A DNA stretch of 32,077 bases from Deltaproteobacteria bacterium (GTDB taxonomy: Bacteria > Myxococcota_A > UBA796 > UBA9615), in the NCBI GenBank assembly GCA_023954745.1, contig JAGSHC010000050.1:1-32077 (forward strand). The letters run 5' to 3'. Below the pieces are notes generated by a model, which saw only the letters and a program-made list of their open reading frames with translations, was not told the DNA's origin and did no database searches. This document shows, one piece after another, positions 12,204 to 21,851 of the stretch (the stretch's first letter is position 1; every line of letters begins with the position of its first letter). The translations under genes were made by a program, and so were the position numbers.

Positions 12204-14312
12204 GTGAAGCAGATCACGCTCGTCGTCCCCACTCCTGCGGAGCCAGCCCGGCTCGACCGCTTCCTATGCGCCCAGCTCCATGGGCTCTCGCGTCGCAAGG
12301 TGAAGGGGATCCTGGACGCAGGTCAAGTGCGCGTCGGAGCGCGGCCGGAGCGTAAGGCCGGACTCACGCTCACGCCTGGGCAGGTCCTCACGCTCGATCT
12401 GCGACCTTCGCTCCTGCCGTGCCCGACCCTCGCTCCGCAAGACATCCTCTCCGAGGGGCAAGGATGGCTGGCTCTGAACAAGCCACCTGGGCTACCCACC
12501 CACCGACCGTCGGAGGATGTGCCCGGGGTTCCCGAGGCGCTGGACGCTTTGGTGCCCGCTCCCCGTGAGGCCATTCGTCCAGCACACCGACTCGACCGCG
12601 CGACGTCGGGCGTCCTTCTGGTCGCCCTCGACGACACCCGCGCCTCCTCCCTTTCGTCGGCCTTCGGGGCGGGCCTCGTGACGAAGCGGTACCGCGCCGT
12701 GGTCTCCCCCGCGCCGGAAGGTCAGCAGGGTGTCCGGGAGGACCCCGACGAGCGAGGGCCGATGCGGCTGAGTTGGCGTGTCCTGCGTCGCTCCAAAGAC
12801 GGTCTGCGCGCGGACCTGGAGGTCTGTCCCGAGCAAGGGCGCACCCACCAGATCCGCCGGCAACTGGCGGCCGCGGGCTGGCCCATCGTGGGCGACCTCA
12901 TCCATGGACGCGCCCTCCCTGGCGGCGCGCCGCGCATGGCTCTGCACTGCGAGGAGTTGCGCTGGGATGGAGAGACGGTCACTGCGCCCCTCCCCCAGGC
13001 CTGGGACCTGCTCCTGAACCCCGGAGCGGCGGCAGGCTCCACGCCCCCACCTCCGAGGGACCGCAAGCCCAAGCGGCGACAGGACCGGCCGGCGCCCACC
13101 CTGCGCGTCTCCGCCGCGACGACGCGGGTCCTCGCAGGAGGACATCCGTGGGTCCTCCCAGATCGAGACACTGGCGACCTCCGCTCCTTCACCCCCGGGG
13201 ACCAGGCACTCCTGGTGGACACTCGAGGCCGGGAGCTTGGGGTCGCCCTGGTGGACCCCGGCCACGACGTCGTGGCCCGACTCCTCGACCCCGAGGCCCG
13301 CAGCCCACTCACTCCCCAGTGGTTCGCGGACCGAACCCGACGCGCTCTTCGGCGGCGGGCGAGCCTCCTGGCTCGAGAGGACACGGACTGCGGACGGCTC
13401 ATCAACGGAGAGTCGGACGGTCTCCCTGGACTGGTCGTCGACCGCTGGGCGGACGCCTTGGTCCTCACCCGAAGCACGCAGGCCGTGGACGGCTTCATCG
13501 AGCCCGTCGTGGATGTCCTCGGCGCGACCTTCCCCGGGGCGAGGATGTACCTGAAGGACCACATCGTCGACTTGCGCCGGCGCGGCGGCGGCCACGAAGG
13601 AGAGCAGTTGCCGGGGAGATGGTTGCGAGGCGGTCCGCAACCGTCGGATGAGCAACTCATCACCAAGGAGGCAGGGCTGCACTACCGGGTCGAGCCCTTC
13701 GGCGGTCTGACGACGGGCTTCTACCCCGACCAGCGGGACAACCGGGCACGGCTGGCGAAACGCATCGCGCCCAGCAGCCGCGTCTTGAACCTGTTTGCCC
13801 ACACGGCGGCGTTCTCGGTCTGCGCGGCGGCGGCGGGGGCGCAGCGGACGGTGAGCGTGGACCTGTCCCACCGGTACTGCACCTGGGCTGAAGAGAACCT
13901 CGCTCGCAATGGCCTGGACCCGGCGCGGCACACGGTGGTCGCGTCGGCGTCGGACCGGTTCCTCCAAGGGACCGACGAGCGTTTCGATGGCGTCGTGATC
14001 GACCCCCCCGCGTTTGCCCGTGGAAAGGCGGGGGCCCGCGGGTGGAGTGCCCGCCGTGACTACGGAGCTCTGGTCGAGCAGGTCGCCGGTGCCCTGAGCC
14101 CCGGGGCGTGCTGGCTGCTCTGCGTCGTGAATCTCAAGGGGACCAAGCCCGCATGGCTCCGGCAGCAGGTGGAGTCCGGACTCCGAGCGGCGGGACGCAC
14201 GGCCACGGAGCTCGAGAGCGCACCTCCGGCCCGGGACTTTCCGTCGCGCCGCGGATTCCCGGAAGGAAGACCCTTCGTCGGGGTGTTCGTGAGTGTGCCC
14301 CCCCGCGCGTGA
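12204..14312 (+). CDS. Fusion: RluA-type pseudouridine synthase + RlmI/RlmK-type methyltransferase
   Basis: Predicted bifunctional RNA-modifying enzyme of 702 aa, GTG start with GAGGG upstream. Residues about 1-70 are an S4-like RNA-binding domain. Residues 80-270 are an RluA-type pseudouridine synthase, with catalytic Asp131 in 'HRLDRATSG', 'TKRYRAVV' and 'GRTHQIRRQL'. A Pro/Lys/Arg linker (about 272-298) joins a PUA-like domain (about 299-365) and a SAM methyltransferase of COG1092 type (about 375-702), with 'INGESDGLPGLVVDRW', 'TGFYPDQRDNR', the SAM strand 'RVLNLFAHTAAFS' and 'DPPAFARGK'. The substrate is probably 23S rRNA. The methyltransferase position where RlmI has 'SCS' reads 'VVN' here, so m5C activity is doubtful. 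No stop or frame break is seen across the junction, so the fusion is encoded as one frame. Confidence 0.88.
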   Translation: MKQITLVVPTPAEPARLDRFLCAQLHGLSRRKVKGILDAGQVRVGARPERKAGLTLTPGQVLTLDLRPSLLPCPTLAPQDILSEGQGWLALNKPPGLPTHRPSEDVPGVPEALDALVPAPREAIRPAHRLDRATSGVLLVALDDTRASSLSSAFGAGLVTKRYRAVVSPAPEGQQGVREDPDERGPMRLSWRVLRRSKDGLRADLEVCPEQGRTHQIRRQLAAAGWPIVGDLIHGRALPGGAPRMALHCEELRWDGETVTAPLPQAWDLLLNPGAAAGSTPPPPRDRKPKRRQDRPAPTLRVSAATTRVLAGGHPWVLPDRDTGDLRSFTPGDQALLVDTRGRELGVALVDPGHDVVARLLDPEARSPLTPQWFADRTRRALRRRASLLAREDTDCGRLINGESDGLPGLVVDRWADALVLTRSTQAVDGFIEPVVDVLGATFPGARMYLKDHIVDLRRRGGGHEGEQLPGRWLRGGPQPSDEQLITKEAGLHYRVEPFGGLTTGFYPDQRDNRARLAKRIAPSSRVLNLFAHTAAFSVCAAAAGAQRTVSVDLSHRYCTWAEENLARNGLDPARHTVVASASDRFLQGTDERFDGVVIDPPAFARGKAGARGWSARRDYGALVEQVAGALSPGACWLLCVVNLKGTKPAWLRQQVESGLRAAGRTATELESAPPARDFPSRRGFPEGRPFVGVFVSVPPRA

Positions 14313-14333: not shown

Positions 14334-14984
14334 ATGCTAGGTTCCGACGCCATGAGAGACGTGAGTTCACTCGACCCGATGTGGGACCCAGAGCCCGAAC
14401 ACACCCTGCGCGGTGGGGCCCTCGTGCGGGTGCTGGGCCGGCTCGGGAAGACCGTGGCTCCCCACCTGGTCTCCTGGGCCGCGGGGATGCACCCACAGCT
14501 GCGGGTCTCCTGGGGCGCGACGGAGTACCACGTGCGTCGAGACGGCATCGCTGCGATGCGTCGCGGAGAGCCGGGGTTCGAGGACAACCCGCGGAGCAAC
14601 TACAACGAGCGCCTCCGCAAGCGACAAGAACGCGCGGCGCGCGTGGCGCCCGACCCAGCGCCCGAGCCAGCGCCGGCCGCCGAGACGGAGTCCGAGACGG
14701 CACCGCGCGTCGACCTCTCGGAGCAGGCCCTGCGAACGGCCGTGCAGGCCAAGATGGGCCGAGAGGTTGCGGGAGACACCGAGGCGATCTCGGACCCCGA
14801 CGCGCTGAAGAGCACCCTGGCCCAGGTGCGCGCATCGCTCCACGCCCTCGATGACGTCAAGGACTGGGGCATCGTCGAGACCCTCGACGACGAGCTCTAC
14901 AAGCTGCACAAGGCCGTCGAGTACACCATGCGGAACCACAAGGCGTCCGAGGCGAAGAGCAAGCTGGACGACCTGTTCAAGTGA
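14334..14984 (+). CDS. Unknown acidic protein coupled to the response regulator
   Basis: Not recognised; 216 aa. The N-terminal half (about 1-100) is a compact domain with 'LVRVLGRLGK', 'HPQLRVSWGATEYHV' and 'NYNERLRKRQER'. A Pro/Glu linker ('APEPAPAAETESE') leads to a charged helical C terminus (about 125-216) that looks capable of coiled-coil or bundle formation ('DELYKLHKAVEYTM', ending 'KSKLDDLFK'). There is no signal peptide, so it should be cytoplasmic. Its TGA overlaps the GTG of the sigma-54 regulator (GTGA, 14981-14984), implying coupled translation and perhaps a shared pathway. GGGAG lies very close to the 14334 ATG; an in-frame ATG at 14352 is an alternative. Confidence 0.7.
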   Translation: MLGSDAMRDVSSLDPMWDPEPEHTLRGGALVRVLGRLGKTVAPHLVSWAAGMHPQLRVSWGATEYHVRRDGIAAMRRGEPGFEDNPRSNYNERLRKRQERAARVAPDPAPEPAPAAETESETAPRVDLSEQALRTAVQAKMGREVAGDTEAISDPDALKSTLAQVRASLHALDDVKDWGIVETLDDELYKLHKAVEYTMRNHKASEAKSKLDDLFK

Positions 14985-16348
14985 GCCCCGACGGTCCTCG
15001 CATCCTCGTCGTCGACGACGAGCCAAACATTCGCACGACGTTCTCCCGCGCGCTGGATTTGGAAGGGTTTGCGGTGCGCACCGCTGAGGACGCGGGGACG
15101 GCCCTCGAGGCCGTCGACGAGTTCAAGCCCGACCTCGTCCTCCTGGATCTGCGCCTCCCCGACCAGGACGGGTTGTGGGTTCTCGAGCAGCTCGCGACGC
15201 TGGACGAGGCCCCTCCGGTCATCATGATGAGCGGGCACGGGACCCTGGAGTCCGCCATCAAGGCGACCCGGCTCGGGGCCCTGGACTTCCTCGAGAAGCC
15301 CGTGCAGATCGACCGCCTGCTCATCACGGTGCGAAACGTCCTCAAGCTCGACGAGCTCGACAAGCAGGTGTCGGTCCTGCGGCGCAGCGTGGTCAGGCGG
15401 CACGGGATGGTCGGGGACTCCCCTGCCCTCCACCGGGTCATCGAGGCAATTCGGCGGGCTGCTCCGACCCAAGCGCGGGTCCTCATCACCGGCGAGAGCG
15501 GCGTCGGCAAGGAGCTGGTGGCCCGGGCCATCCATGACCTCAGTCGCCGGGCGGCCGGGCCCTTCAACAAGCTCAACTGCGCCGCGATCCCCGAGAACCT
15601 CGTCGAGTCCGAGCTCTTTGGGCACGAACGCGGGGCCTTCACGGGCGCCGAGCGTCGCCGACTGGGGCGCTTTGAGCGCGCAGATGGAGGAACGCTCTTC
15701 CTCGATGAGATCGGCGAGATGCCGCTGTCGCTCCAGGCGCGGCTCCTGCGGGTGCTTCAGGAGGGCGAACTCGAGCGCGTTGGCGGCAGCACTGTCATTC
15801 CCGTGGATGTGCGAGTCATCGCCGCCACCAACCGTGACCTCTCCGAGGAGATCGCGGCGGGTCGCTTTCGCGAAGACCTCTATTACCGCCTCGCGGTCCT
15901 CCCCATCGCGGTCCCCCCGCTGCGCTCCCGCCTGAGCGACGTCCCAGCCCTGGCCACTGCGCTGCTCAGCGGCGCATGCACCCAGCACGACTTGCCGCCC
16001 ATCGAGTGGACCGACGAGGCGCTGCGGGCTCTCCAGCGTCATGACTGGCCCGGAAACGTGCGGGAGCTGGGCAATCTCGTGGACCGGCTCGCAATCCTCA
16101 GCCGCGACGCGCTGATTCGCGGCGATGATGTGCGCACTGCGCTGCCGGGAGCTGCTCCGCTCTTGGGTCCGAGCATTCCTGAGGAGGGGGCGCTCTACGA
16201 GCTCCTGGAGTCCTTCGAGCGACGCATCATCGAGGACCGCATCGCGCGGTTCGATGGGAACATGACCCAGGCAGCCACGGACTTGGGGCTGGAGCGCAGC
16301 CACCTCTACAAGAAGGTGAAGCGACTCGGGATTCGCCGGGAGGATTGA
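14981..16348 (+). CDS. Sigma-54-dependent response regulator (NtrC/NtrX family)
   Basis: Two-component response regulator that should activate sigma-54 promoters; 455 aa. The receiver domain (about 5-120) has the acidic pair Asp12/Asp13, phospho-acceptor Asp56 in 'LVLLDLRLP', Ser84 and Lys106. The AAA+ domain (about 140-370) carries Walker A 'GESGVGKE' (171-178), the sigma-54 contact loop 'GAFTGA' (218-223), Walker B 'GTLFLDEIGEM' and the arginine-finger region 'RFREDLYYRL'. The C-terminal Fis-type helix-turn-helix (about 425-452) is 'NMTQAATDLGLERSHLYKKV'. All residues needed for phosphorylation and sigma-54 contact are present. The gene starts with a GTG overlapping the previous stop. The cognate kinase is most likely the NtrY-like protein at 20160-21851. 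Confidence 0.94.
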   Translation: MSPDGPRILVVDDEPNIRTTFSRALDLEGFAVRTAEDAGTALEAVDEFKPDLVLLDLRLPDQDGLWVLEQLATLDEAPPVIMMSGHGTLESAIKATRLGALDFLEKPVQIDRLLITVRNVLKLDELDKQVSVLRRSVVRRHGMVGDSPALHRVIEAIRRAAPTQARVLITGESGVGKELVARAIHDLSRRAAGPFNKLNCAAIPENLVESELFGHERGAFTGAERRRLGRFERADGGTLFLDEIGEMPLSLQARLLRVLQEGELERVGGSTVIPVDVRVIAATNRDLSEEIAAGRFREDLYYRLAVLPIAVPPLRSRLSDVPALATALLSGACTQHDLPPIEWTDEALRALQRHDWPGNVRELGNLVDRLAILSRDALIRGDDVRTALPGAAPLLGPSIPEEGALYELLESFERRIIEDRIARFDGNMTQAATDLGLERSHLYKKVKRLGIRRED

Positions 16349-16411
16349 GCCCCGCGGCTCCCGCCCCGAACGCGTGTGTCCCGGGAGGCACACCCACCAC
16401 GGCAGCGGCGT

Positions 16412-16429
16412 GGACGTCTTGCCACGTCC
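16412..16429. promoter_or_regulatory. Candidate upstream activator site (GGACGT dyad)
   Basis: A perfect 6-bp inverted repeat, GGACGT/ACGTCC, with a 6-nt spacer, overlaps a second dyad (CGTGG/CCACG). Its centre is about 70 bp upstream of the -24 element candidate, close to -95 relative to the inferred start site. That is the usual position of binding sites for NtrC-family activators. Binding by the neighbouring regulator is inference. Confidence 0.45.
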
Positions 16430-16489
16430 CGAGGTGGCGCGAGAGCCCCCGCCGGCCTCAACCTCTGCAAGAACAGGCACTTGGCGTTG

Positions 16490-16505
16490 TGGCACGGAAC
16501 GTGGA
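16490..16505 (+). promoter_or_regulatory. Near-consensus sigma-54 (-24/-12) promoter
   Basis: TGGCACGGAACGTGGA matches the sigma-54 consensus TGGCACG-N4-TTGCW at all -24 positions with correct spacing. At -12 it reads GTGG where TTGC is expected, so the normally conserved GC is GG, which could weaken it. It lies about 50 bp upstream of the TPR lipoprotein start and directly after a sigma-54 activator gene. Confidence 0.5.
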
Positions 16506-16552
16506 GTAAGGATGGAGCAGCCGCGATGTTGCGGCCTTGATTGGAGGCTCCC

Positions 16553-17551
16553 ATGCCCACGTCCCGCTTGTTCCCCGTTGTCACCACCCTCCTGGCCGCC
16601 GCGGCCCTGAGCGCATGCACCCCCGACGGCGAGGTCTCCATCGCACAGGCAGTCTCGGCGGAGGCGGCGGCGGACATTCCAGACCTCGCCGCCAGCCTCG
16701 TCGAGCCCGCACCTGAGGAGGAGGTCGACGAGGCGCTGCGGCCCATCGGCGAGCCTGGTACTCCCCTCGCCCGAGAGGCCATTCCGCACCACGACCCGCG
16801 CTTCCACGACCACTTCGCTGAGGGGCAGCTCCTGATGGAAGAGGGAGACGCCACCGGTGCGATCGACCACCTGCGGAAGGCGCTCTTCGACGCCCCTGAG
16901 TCTGCGGCCACCTGGTACGAGCTCGGCCAGGCGTATGTGACGGTGGGCCGTCGGGGTCGCGGCGTCGACTGCATGGAGGAGGCGGTGGCTCGAGAGCCAC
17001 GCCACGTCGAGGCGCAGCGGTTCCTGGCACGCCACTTCCTCAATCGAGGGGAGACTGCCGCCGCCCGGGCGCCCGTGCGCGCCCTCGCCCGCTACGACCG
17101 AGAGGACTTCCGCACGCCCTACCTGCAGAGCCGGCTGTTCCTGGCGATGAACATGTGGCAGGAGGCCATCACCGCCAGTCGGCGCGCGGTCGCCCTGAAC
17201 CCGGAGTTCATCTACGCCTACAACAACCTCGGCTTTGCTGCCCTTCAGGTGGGGCGCGACGCCCTGGCCATCCAGTACCTCGAGGCAGCCACGGAGCTCA
17301 CGCCGCTGGAGCCCTACATGCTCAACAACCTGGGCGTGGCCTACGAGCGCTTGCTCCGGCACGGCGACTCCCTCACGGCCTTCGCCCGTGCCGCAAGCCT
17401 GGACCCGATGTACGTCAAGGCGGTCTCCAACCGCGACCGGATGCAGGCGGTGGTCGACCGCGAGACCGCGGATGAGGTGGCCCGCATCCTGGCCGCCCGC
17501 GCTACGGGTGAGGCGCCTGACGAGGGCGTGGCGTCGATGCAGCTCCCCTAG
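16553..17551 (+). CDS. TPR-repeat lipoprotein
   Basis: Predicted envelope lipoprotein of 332 aa, function unknown, likely a scaffold for protein contacts. The start is set by TTGGAGG 5 nt upstream and by the lipoprotein signal peptide ending in 'LSAC' (Cys22). After an acidic, Ala-rich linker (about 25-75), residues 80-300 hold about six tetratricopeptide-like repeats. Examples are 'GDATGAIDHLRKALFDAPES', 'AYNNLGFAALQVGRDALA' and 'YMLNNLGVAYERL'. It is the first gene after the regulator, behind the sigma-54-like promoter, and is followed 30 nt later by the FG-GAP-like gene. It may be a target or a sensory accessory of the two-component system. Confidence 0.85.
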   Translation: MPTSRLFPVVTTLLAAAALSACTPDGEVSIAQAVSAEAAADIPDLAASLVEPAPEEEVDEALRPIGEPGTPLAREAIPHHDPRFHDHFAEGQLLMEEGDATGAIDHLRKALFDAPESAATWYELGQAYVTVGRRGRGVDCMEEAVAREPRHVEAQRFLARHFLNRGETAAARAPVRALARYDREDFRTPYLQSRLFLAMNMWQEAITASRRAVALNPEFIYAYNNLGFAALQVGRDALAIQYLEAATELTPLEPYMLNNLGVAYERLLRHGDSLTAFARAASLDPMYVKAVSNRDRMQAVVDRETADEVARILAARATGEAPDEGVASMQLP

Positions 17552-17581: not shown

Positions 17582-18832
17582 GTGACGCGTCTCTCTCTCG
17601 TCGGGTTCCTGGTTCTCGCGCTCGTCGCCCTGCGGCCGGCCGTGGCCCAGGAGCCCGGCGAGAGTTCGCTCACCGGGTGGCTCGATGCGTTCGCGCGGCA
17701 GCTCGAAGGCGTCCCCGACGGCCCGCGGGCCGGTCTGTCCATACAGTGGGTCGCTGGGCGCGGTGTGGAGGAGCGCCGGGTCGAGCGCGTCGTGCGCCCA
17801 CACCTTGTCCGGCGGCTCGAGCGAGGGGCGGTGGTGGGACCCCTCAACGATGACGGCGACTCGGCCATGGTGATCACCGTCTCTCTGGAGGGCGACCGGG
17901 TCTGGGCTGTCGGCGTGCTGCGAAGCGGGGGGCTGGCGGGCCCGGTGGCCGTCGCTCAGGACTGGCCCGTCGATCGGGAGCTCGAAGCGCTGCTCGGCCT
18001 GCGCCCTGCGCGACCGGGCCAGGGTCGCTGGAGCATGGAGCGGCTGGGCACGCTGCCCCTCGGAGTCCTCGATCTCCTGTTGCAGGATCTGGACGGCGAC
18101 GGGCGTGATGACATCGTTCTCCTCGGCGTCGACGGCGTGCGCACCTACCTGTGGTCCCCTCTGGAAGAGCGCCCGTCTCTGGACCAAGGGCCCCTCCCTC
18201 TCCCTCGGGCTCCCTGGCCTCGGGCCCTCGAGGGGTGGCTCGCCTGGGACGGTGCCGCGGTCCGGGTGGCGACGACCGCCGGGCACCGCATGCGATGGCC
18301 CATCGATGGGCGCGCTCTCCTCCCCGACGAGGAGGACGGCGTGCCTCTCTCCCAGGCCTACGATCCATCCCGCGCGCCGTTGCTGCTGGGCCGCCTCGGT
18401 TCCGGCGTGGACCTCACCGTCCCATCCACTCCTCAGTCCGGCCCCCTCCGCGACGTGGCCCAGTGGCCAGGGCGGGATGACGTGTGGCTGTGGGTCGACG
18501 CAGCGGGTGTGCTCGGGGGGGCAGGCTCAGCTGGGCCGCCCACCTTTCGGGAGCGGCGGGTGGGAGATCGGCTCCTCCTCGCAGATCTCGACGCCAACGC
18601 TGGCCCGGAGCTCGTGACGTCGGAGGCTGCTCTCCCGGGGAGCCCCGACCGGGTGCGGATCGAGGCCGTGAGCCCGCGCCTCGATGTCCTCACGGTCTTG
18701 TTCGAGGGATCGTTGGACGGCGCCGTGCGAGCGATGGCGGCCGGCGACGTGGACTTCGACGGCCGGGGCGACCTCCTGCTGGTGGAAGAGACTGCGGGCG
18801 CACCGGTCCTCTGGATTGTGAGGAGGCGCTGA
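17582..18832 (+). CDS. Secreted FG-GAP/VCBS-like protein
   Basis: Predicted periplasmic or secreted protein of 416 aa. A GTG start opens a signal peptide with likely cleavage after 'RPAVA' (residue 22). Three short Asp-rich loops of FG-GAP type are visible: 'DLDGDGRDDIVLLG' (about 169-182), 'ADLDANAGPELVTS' (about 340) and 'GDVDFDGRGDLLLV' (about 390). These are calcium-binding loops in beta-propeller proteins, so a partial propeller is likely; the N-terminal 150 residues are not assigned. Its TGA shares its last A with the ATG of the next gene (TGATG), so the two are coupled. Function is unknown; position suggests a part in envelope sensing or in the regulated output. Confidence 0.7.
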   Translation: MTRLSLVGFLVLALVALRPAVAQEPGESSLTGWLDAFARQLEGVPDGPRAGLSIQWVAGRGVEERRVERVVRPHLVRRLERGAVVGPLNDDGDSAMVITVSLEGDRVWAVGVLRSGGLAGPVAVAQDWPVDRELEALLGLRPARPGQGRWSMERLGTLPLGVLDLLLQDLDGDGRDDIVLLGVDGVRTYLWSPLEERPSLDQGPLPLPRAPWPRALEGWLAWDGAAVRVATTAGHRMRWPIDGRALLPDEEDGVPLSQAYDPSRAPLLLGRLGSGVDLTVPSTPQSGPLRDVAQWPGRDDVWLWVDAAGVLGGAGSAGPPTFRERRVGDRLLLADLDANAGPELVTSEAALPGSPDRVRIEAVSPRLDVLTVLFEGSLDGAVRAMAAGDVDFDGRGDLLLVEETAGAPVLWIVRRR

Positions 18833-20159
18833 TGCGGCTCGCCGCCATGATCGCGCTCTCCTTGTTGGCGACAATGGCGGCGCCCGCCCCGAGCGAGGCG
18901 CGCCGCGCGGCGGTGGGCGGCGGTGAAGCCAGCGTGTATTTGGGCAATGTCGACCTCGCGCTGTTGGCCAACGCCCTCGAGACCACCCCCCTGGTGGAGC
19001 CACGGGACCGTCGCATCTCGCCCGACCTTGCGGCGGCCTGGCCCACCATTGGTGAGGAGGGGGCGCGTTCTCGGTTTCTCGCAGGTCTCGTGTCTTCGGA
19101 CGCCGGACGCCTCTGGACTCTCGTCCCCCACGGAGACGCCAAGCCGCTCGCAGGGATCCTGGCCGCATGCCTGAGCGGGAGCGACGCCTGGCCGGCGCGT
19201 GCGCTGCGCGCAGCGGGGACGGAGGTGACGGTGGGGACCGCGGGGGAACGGGTGACCCTCAGCTTCTCATCCCCCGTGGGAGCAGTCCTTGCTCTCCTCC
19301 GGGGGTGCGCGTCCCCGGACGGACCGTTCCTTGCGGCTGGAGACAGTGGATGGACAGCCAACCCCGCGGCCGCCGGAGGGCGCCCCCACCTGGACACGGT
19401 CACGGTCGTGACGACCCCCGGGGAGGCAGCGCTCCTGGCCGCGACATCGGGCGCAGCCGGTGAGCTGCTGGTCGCTCCGTGGCCCGATGTGTGGCTGCTC
19501 GTCCCCGACGAGGCCGCGAAAGACGCGGACCCTCTGGACCTCGGCGTGGCGGGCGAGGGGCTCTCACGCTTCTCGGACGAGTTGGCCGCGGACCTCATTC
19601 TCGCCGTGCATCGCGGAGGCCGAGGCGCCGCGACGACGCACCTACTTCCTCCGGGGGTGGCCCCAGCCCGGAGCATGGCCGTCGCGCTCGGGAGGGCCCC
19701 CGCGCCACCGTTGACGCTGCTGCCCTTGCCGGCAGACGCTCCATCACTGCGCGTGGCGCATCAGGCAGCCGACGAGCTCGCCGGTGCCCTGCTCGAACGG
19801 CTGGCGCTCTTGCTCCGGGCCCGTGGGTGGGCGGTGACTGGAGCCGAGTCCAAGGGGGCGCCGGCGGCTCACATCGTGCGCTGGCGGCCGTCGACGCCCG
19901 ACACGGGGCTTGCGCTGTTGACCCTCGCCGCTGATCTCGACCTGCCACTCCCGCCCGACTCCGCCGAGGGGCTCCTCTCCGCGACTCGAGCAGAGCGTAC
20001 GTCTGCCGCGCTGACCATCGAGCGGCAGTGGCTGGACGCTCGCCTGGTCGTGCCTCTCCTCACGGCGGAGCGTACGCTGACCGTGAGTCCTCGCCTCGTG
20101 GGCGTGAGGGTTCGGGGTGACGGCGCCCCGGTCCTCGATGATGCCTGGTGGGTCTCGCC

Positions 20160-20163
<4 letters not shown>
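18832..20163 (+). CDS. Periplasmic protein resembling a shortened peptide-binding (SBP_bac_5) protein
   Basis: Predicted periplasmic protein, 443 aa, with a signal peptide likely cut after 'PAPSEA' (residue 23). The ATG at 18832 overlaps the previous stop and has GGAGG 5 nt upstream. Several segments sit in the order seen in extracellular solute-binding proteins family 5: 'RRISPDLAAAWPT' near the start, 'VTLSFSSPVGAVLALL' with 'GPFLAAGDSGWTANPAAAGG', 'PHLDTVTVV', and 'HLLPPGVAPA' in the second lobe. It is shorter than most family members (over 500 aa) and no permease or ATPase genes are nearby. The assignment is by eye and moderate. If right, it could present a ligand to the adjacent kinase rather than feed a transporter. 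Confidence 0.55.

Positions 20164-21851
<1,688 letters not shown>

Follow-up and report, generated by a model that had tools for sequence, protein, structure and literature searches.

A candidate sigma-54 promoter with paired operator sites between an NtrC-type regulator gene and a sensor kinase operon in an uncultured deltaproteobacterial lineage

Background

Activators of sigma-54 RNA polymerase bind as dimers to tandem upstream sites, from which they reach the polymerase by looping and then remodel it. Their L1 loop, which carries the GAFTGA motif, is described as engaging sigma-54 and the DNA near -12 (PMC9770992).

The QseE/QseG/QseF (GlrK/GlrR) system of Escherichia coli resembles the locus considered here in the clustering of an NtrC-type regulator, a kinase and a lipoprotein. 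As described, its cluster includes an outer-membrane lipoprotein, QseG controls the kinase QseE, the regulator binds TGTN12ACA upstream activating sites of sigma-54 promoters, and qseEGF itself has a sigma-70 promoter and no autoregulation (PMC6075780). ZraS/ZraR, a sigma-54 two-component system, is described as autoregulating the operon that encodes it (PMC12316311). For Nla28 of Myxococcus xanthus, paired half-sites are reported upstream of TGGCACG-N4-TTGC(T/A) promoters, some of them off consensus (PMC7910581). The described part of the sigma-54 regulome of Desulfovibrio vulgaris, obtained by a comparative approach like ours for other regulators and other motifs, includes inverted-repeat sites, tGGcacg/tTGCt promoters and autoregulated units (PMC4641369).

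Unlike qseEGF, the kinase operon described here itself carries a candidate sigma-54 promoter; its TPR lipoprotein recalls QseG by analogy. The sites upstream have the general form GTG-N10-CAC (TGT-N8-ACA in one relative) instead of TGTN12ACA, and their GTGTCC is unlike the Nla28 half-site CT(C/G)CG(C/G)AG. The likeness to ZraS/ZraR lies in the probable sigma-54 two-component autoregulation. The regulator reached no NCBIfam equivalog cut-off among the 25 matches listed (score/cut-off: NtrC 457.4/558.6, NtrX 436.9/600, AtoC 443.8/714, ZraR 363.6/760, GlrR 340.6/763), and thus misses both the GlrR and the ZraR models.

Results

The locus and its relatives

The window, that is, the whole analysed stretch of 32,077 bp, contains a 204-bp gap (16349-16552) between the regulator gene and the TPR lipoprotein gene. 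The features are as follows.

14981..16348, plus strand: NtrC-type response regulator, presumed activator (PF00072; PF00158, 7.9e-75; PF02954)
16376..16391, no strand: candidate distal operator GTGTCCCGGGAGGCAC, centre 106.5 bp upstream of TGGCACG
16410..16425, no strand: candidate proximal, weaker operator GTGGACGTCTTGCCAC, centre 72.5 bp upstream of TGGCACG
16412..16429, no strand: exact dyad GGACGT-cttgcc-ACGTCC, centre about 95 bp upstream of the predicted start, judged incidental
16490..16505, plus strand: candidate sigma-54 promoter TGGCACG-GAAC-GTGGA, -24 exact, -12 off consensus (GG for GC)
about 16516, plus strand: transcription start predicted from sigma-54 geometry, about 13 bases after the -13 G
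16553..17551, plus strand: TPR-repeat lipoprotein, first operon gene (TPR families; lipobox-like LSAC by eye)
17582..18832, plus strand: FG-GAP-like protein, probably exported (PF01839, 21.4 bits, slightly below the 22.1 cut-off; orthologs in both relatives)
18832..20163, plus strand: probably exported protein of no recognised family (no match in Pfam or NCBIfam)
20160..21851, plus strand: sensor histidine kinase (HAMP, HisKA, HATPase; Pfam), presumed partner of the regulator, last operon gene, synteny in 3/3 genomes

The regulator combines a receiver domain, a sigma-54 AAA+ domain with GAFTGA and a Fis-type HTH, and is therefore an NtrC-type activator. The genome has one copy of rpoN (PF04552, 3.1e-63; ARRTVAKYR box read by eye).

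At E <= 1e-120 the regulator occurs in three of the 58 genomes searched: the own genome (G000), one of the same genus g1 (G001, locus L032, 76% identical) and one of g4, a second genus of the same family (G005, locus L006, 66% identical). The end of its HTH, LGLERSHLYKK, has the same letters in all three orthologs. The order p14334, regulator, gap, TPR lipoprotein, FG-GAP protein, 18832..20163 protein, kinase is kept in both relatives, where the lipoprotein orthologs are 58% and 51% identical. The 18832..20163 protein is present in 3 of the 71 genomes of the class, the same three that carry the regulator locus; its predicted structure is unusable (mean pLDDT 46.9). A scan of a GTDB-based contig collection with the TPR alignment gave no relatives beyond these two.

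Elsewhere in the window (12204-14312), one half of a single open frame is an RluA-type pseudouridine synthase and the other an RlmI-like rRNA methyltransferase. Its match in G001 is also one single stretch.

The sigma-54 promoter

The gap had been predicted to hold a sigma-54 promoter with TGGCACG at a proper -24 position and GG instead of GC at -12, and these elements are indeed there. TGGCACG lies at 16490-16496, and its GG (16491-16492) is separated by 10 bases (16493-16502) from a second GG (16503-16504). The -12 element is TGGA (16502-16505); since GG replaces GC, the promoter is classed as a variant and not as a consensus member. TGGCACG is unlikely to occur in this gap by chance (P 0.027, 5000 dinucleotide shuffles), and it is identical in 3/3 orthologous gaps, 44-64 bp before the start codon, amid other ungapped columns of the three-way alignment of which 44/141 are identical. 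This conservation and the presence of rpoN argue for a sigma-54 promoter. The -12 region is GTGG in the window, GTGA in G001 and the canonical CTGC in G005. No sigma-70-like promoter was found in 16200-16700.

Directly after the predicted start, at 16520-16535, there is a hairpin GCCGCgatgttGCGGC with a similar stem in G001 and none in G005; it folds no better than shuffles (z -0.40).

The regulator of G005 (L006:704-2044) has GAFSGA for GAFTGA, and its promoter has a canonical -12, unlike those of the two GAFTGA genomes, an observation on three genomes only. GAFSGA is counted as an activity-keeping variant in the Desulfovibrio vulgaris regulome as described (PMC4641369).

The operator pair

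The original prediction also named two inverted repeats. The exact GGACGT/ACGTCC dyad is present about 95 bp upstream of the start, as claimed, and was rejected as an operator: 6-bp inverted repeats with 3-15 bp spacers are at chance level (one observed, shuffle mean 1.19, P 0.60, 5000 shuffles of the gap), and the dyad is absent from both orthologous gaps. It merely overlaps the weaker, proximal half of a different structure, a pair of 16-bp GTG-N10-CAC sites. The imperfect hairpin GTGTGTCCCGGGAGGCACAC, correctly noted at 16374-16393, encloses the distal and stronger half of this pair. Judged by the shuffles, the unusual features of the gap are the promoter and the imperfect hairpin; the exact dyad is unremarkable. 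Two GTG-N10-CAC sites in the gap compare with a shuffle mean of 0.12 (P 0.005), for a pattern picked after seeing the relatives.

In G001 the operon gap contains one clear site, at 62.5 bp from TGGCACG, and a poor distal one (9.8 bits; spacing 31 by eye); in G005 there is a site at 71.5 bp and a second, imperfect one 24 bp further upstream (L006:2056, 2080). The position of the proximal window site agrees with the sites at 62.5 and 71.5 bp. Among the 32,062 window positions, the distal site takes first rank with each of three matrices: one built from two sites of the relatives (one from G001, one from G005), one from three sites and one from the promoters of the VIT/VWA gene described below. 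The respective ranks of the proximal site are 50, 80 and 6. The VIT/VWA-only matrix, ranking the two sites first and sixth, therefore provides independent support for both. Conversely, a matrix from the single window site ranks the G001 site L032:8846 first in 18,969 bases, and L006:2080 and L006:2056 first and second in 11,727 bases. Thus repeated dyad sites upstream of -24 are kept between species, as in enhancer regions, and the GTG-N10-CAC pair is the likely operator, its halves being candidate regulator-binding sites.

The spacing between sites is 34, 34 and 32 bp at three promoters of genus g1 versus 24 bp at three promoters of genus g4, a difference of about one helical turn.

A second target

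A strict search for GTGTCCCNNGGGACAC with at most one mismatch in four genomes matched only the G005 operon site and four other places where the retrieved sequence has no sigma-54 site; its excessive stringency made it miss the target described here. Scoring for the operator in the regions upstream of 171 sorted TGGCACG-N5-TGNW sites singled out two loci, L062 in the own genome (G000:C186:2348-2504) and L112 in G001. The latter had been labelled coding by the codon model and reads as a clear intergenic promoter. Both precede orthologous genes of a VIT/VWA-domain protein (68% identical; Pfam VIT 1.2e-26), divergent in both genomes from a gene of an SPFH/Band-7 protein and unlinked to the regulator locus. 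So the proposal that the same dyad might precede other genes holds, for one further gene, once the operator is redefined.

The operator and sigma-54 promoter precede the VIT/VWA gene in the own genome and in 3/3 relatives with the gene (L062, L112, L251, L252). Measured from TGGCACG, the site centres lie 94.5 and 60.5 bp upstream in G000, compared with 92.5 and 60.5 bp in G001; the proximal distance is exactly 60.5 bp also in G005 and G004, where distal and proximal sites are 24 bp apart, the distal one of G005 being chosen as the best-scoring stretch. The -12 is TGC in G000, G001 and G005; in G004 the GC is at the right distance, with G replacing the preceding T. G004 has a VIT/VWA ortholog with a near-perfect operator, but no copy of the regulator or of the TPR gene turned up there; as the assembly is 79% complete, this absence is uncertain.

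The combined operator-plus-promoter pattern has 13 matches in the 71 genomes of the class, two in each of G000, G001 and G005 and seven in the other 68. The six matches in the regulator carriers all fall at the kinase operon or the VIT/VWA gene; since the pattern was drawn from known sites, only the G005 VIT/VWA match, which was new, and the later-read G004 site are out of sample. With the reversed pattern as a control, the three carriers had no match but many other genomes did. Four genomes from other families also contain the two-site pattern. Within the family, the genomes G002, G003 and G006 have no regulator, no close VIT/VWA ortholog and no operator-plus-promoter match. A literature search found no paper with a VIT domain under sigma-54 and none on VIT, SPFH and envelope stress together.

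In several promoters (L249, L250, L251, L252, L078) TGGCACG is preceded, at about 20-30 bp, by a TGAAAT/ATGATTT stretch that may be a site for IHF or alpha-CTD.

Variants of the -12 element

We sorted the 171 sites by the two last letters of TGGCACG-N5-TGNW, seeking C-type sites in three genomes and non-C sites in seven, and excluding the window site and its G001 ortholog. The shares of sites labelled intergenic are 44/57 for CT, 15/28 for CA, 12/20 for AA, 7/22 for GA, 3/12 for AT, 2/18 for GT, 3/9 for TA and 1/5 for TT, compared with a base level of 6.4% and 2/22 in an anagram control. These fractions are rough, because the labelling relied on a home-made codon model, which had been trained on the window and mislabelled L112 as coding. 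Most of the intergenic sites have C at -12 (59/87). As their intergenic shares exceed the base level and the anagram control, TGAA seems to be a genuine minority form and TGGA may be another; a minority of the order's TGGCACG promoters apparently have TGAA, perhaps also TGGA, at -12.

Intergenic TGGCACG-N4-TTGAA sites occur in several genera (L043, L049, L050, L164, L181, L182, L189, L199) and are a possible variant class of sigma-54 promoters. The idea that a non-C -12 requires A at -11 was not clearly upheld. With the same two sites left out, A is found in 6/6 intergenic versus 9/22 coding non-C sites of G000, G001 and G005, and in 16/22 versus 20/36 in four further genomes.

Discussion

The gap is most probably an enhancer-type sigma-54 region through which the neighbouring regulator, bound at two sites, activates the kinase operon and the VIT/VWA gene in a feedback loop; we put the probability of this reading at roughly 0.83. 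The phosphorylated regulator would bind as dimers to 16376-16391 and 16410-16425, about three helical turns apart, and loop to the sigma-54 polymerase held at TGGCACG-N5-TGGA (16490-16505). ATP hydrolysis by the regulator would then open the promoter of what is presumably one operon encoding the TPR lipoprotein, the FG-GAP protein, the unnamed protein and the kinase. The kinase presumably phosphorylates the regulator in turn, which would make the feedback loop positive. The same regulator would activate the VIT/VWA gene, a surface-protein gene elsewhere in the genome.

The link between regulator and sites is read from genome comparison. Because the sites recur in relatives and before a second gene, the regulator most likely activates both the sensor operon and the VIT/VWA gene. 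The original prediction that it controls the downstream genes, including its kinase, is likewise favoured by the gene order, -24 element and operator kept in three genomes and by the presence of rpoN. The prediction as a whole thus survives in part, with the promoter and the regulator's control retained and the exact dyad given up as a binding site. The missing C at -12 in the window and in G001, the weakness of the proximal window site by the operon-site matrices, and the occurrence of the whole locus in three genomes only count against the reading. So do the single clear site in the operon gap of G001, the VIT/VWA target of G004 in an assembly where the regulator did not turn up, and the two-site pattern in genomes of other families.

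Could the promoter and operators be real and yet be bound by another NtrC-type regulator, with the neighbouring one acting elsewhere? Many sigma-54 activators per genome are likely, as the own genome has 96 first-look candidate stretches for the regulator, and the VIT/VWA target is unlinked. However, targets and regulator co-occur in G000, G001 and G005 and are all lacking in G002, G003 and G006, the end of the regulator HTH is invariant, and the only discordant genome, G004, is incomplete; we consider this explanation unlikely. Improbable to a similar degree is decay of the promoter in genus g1, where loss of the C at -12 would inactivate it and the operon would be read through from upstream. 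The C is the prevailing -12 letter in the census and is replaced in TGG and TGA here. On the other hand, the -24 element and the operators are kept amid heavy divergence, the TGAA and TGGA forms are intergenic more often than the base level and the anagram control, and one-base changes in GC or GG are on record for characterised sigma-54 promoters (PMC7910581).

The dyads might also be RNA hairpins or a terminator ending the regulator transcript, the operon being read from elsewhere, and GC-rich inverted repeats do lie directly after the stop codon. But no terminator-like site was found, folding is no better than in shuffles (z 0.58 and -0.07), and the sites recur at set distances from -24 and before an unlinked gene. 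This reading was rejected as very improbable.

Under the preferred reading of an enhancer-type region, a wider model can be put forward, tentatively, as we regard it as rather doubtful. The system may be a small envelope-sensing feedback regulon that shares the logic of QseEGF and, unlike it, amplifies itself. The promoter of the kinase operon might, in genus g1, be detuned at -12 (TGG/TGA) while that of the VIT/VWA gene keeps TGC, so that the effector would fire before the loop, the order at large using a minority -12 class of TGAA, perhaps TGGA.

Conclusion

The circuit is of an ordinary kind; what is new is its mapping in an uncultured lineage, the redefined operator and one further target. 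If the -12 variants are active, scans for sigma-54 promoters overlook real ones in these genomes when they insist on GC at -12. What had been a guess by eye is now a candidate regulon of two targets whose operator is defined, and its feedback design is testable.
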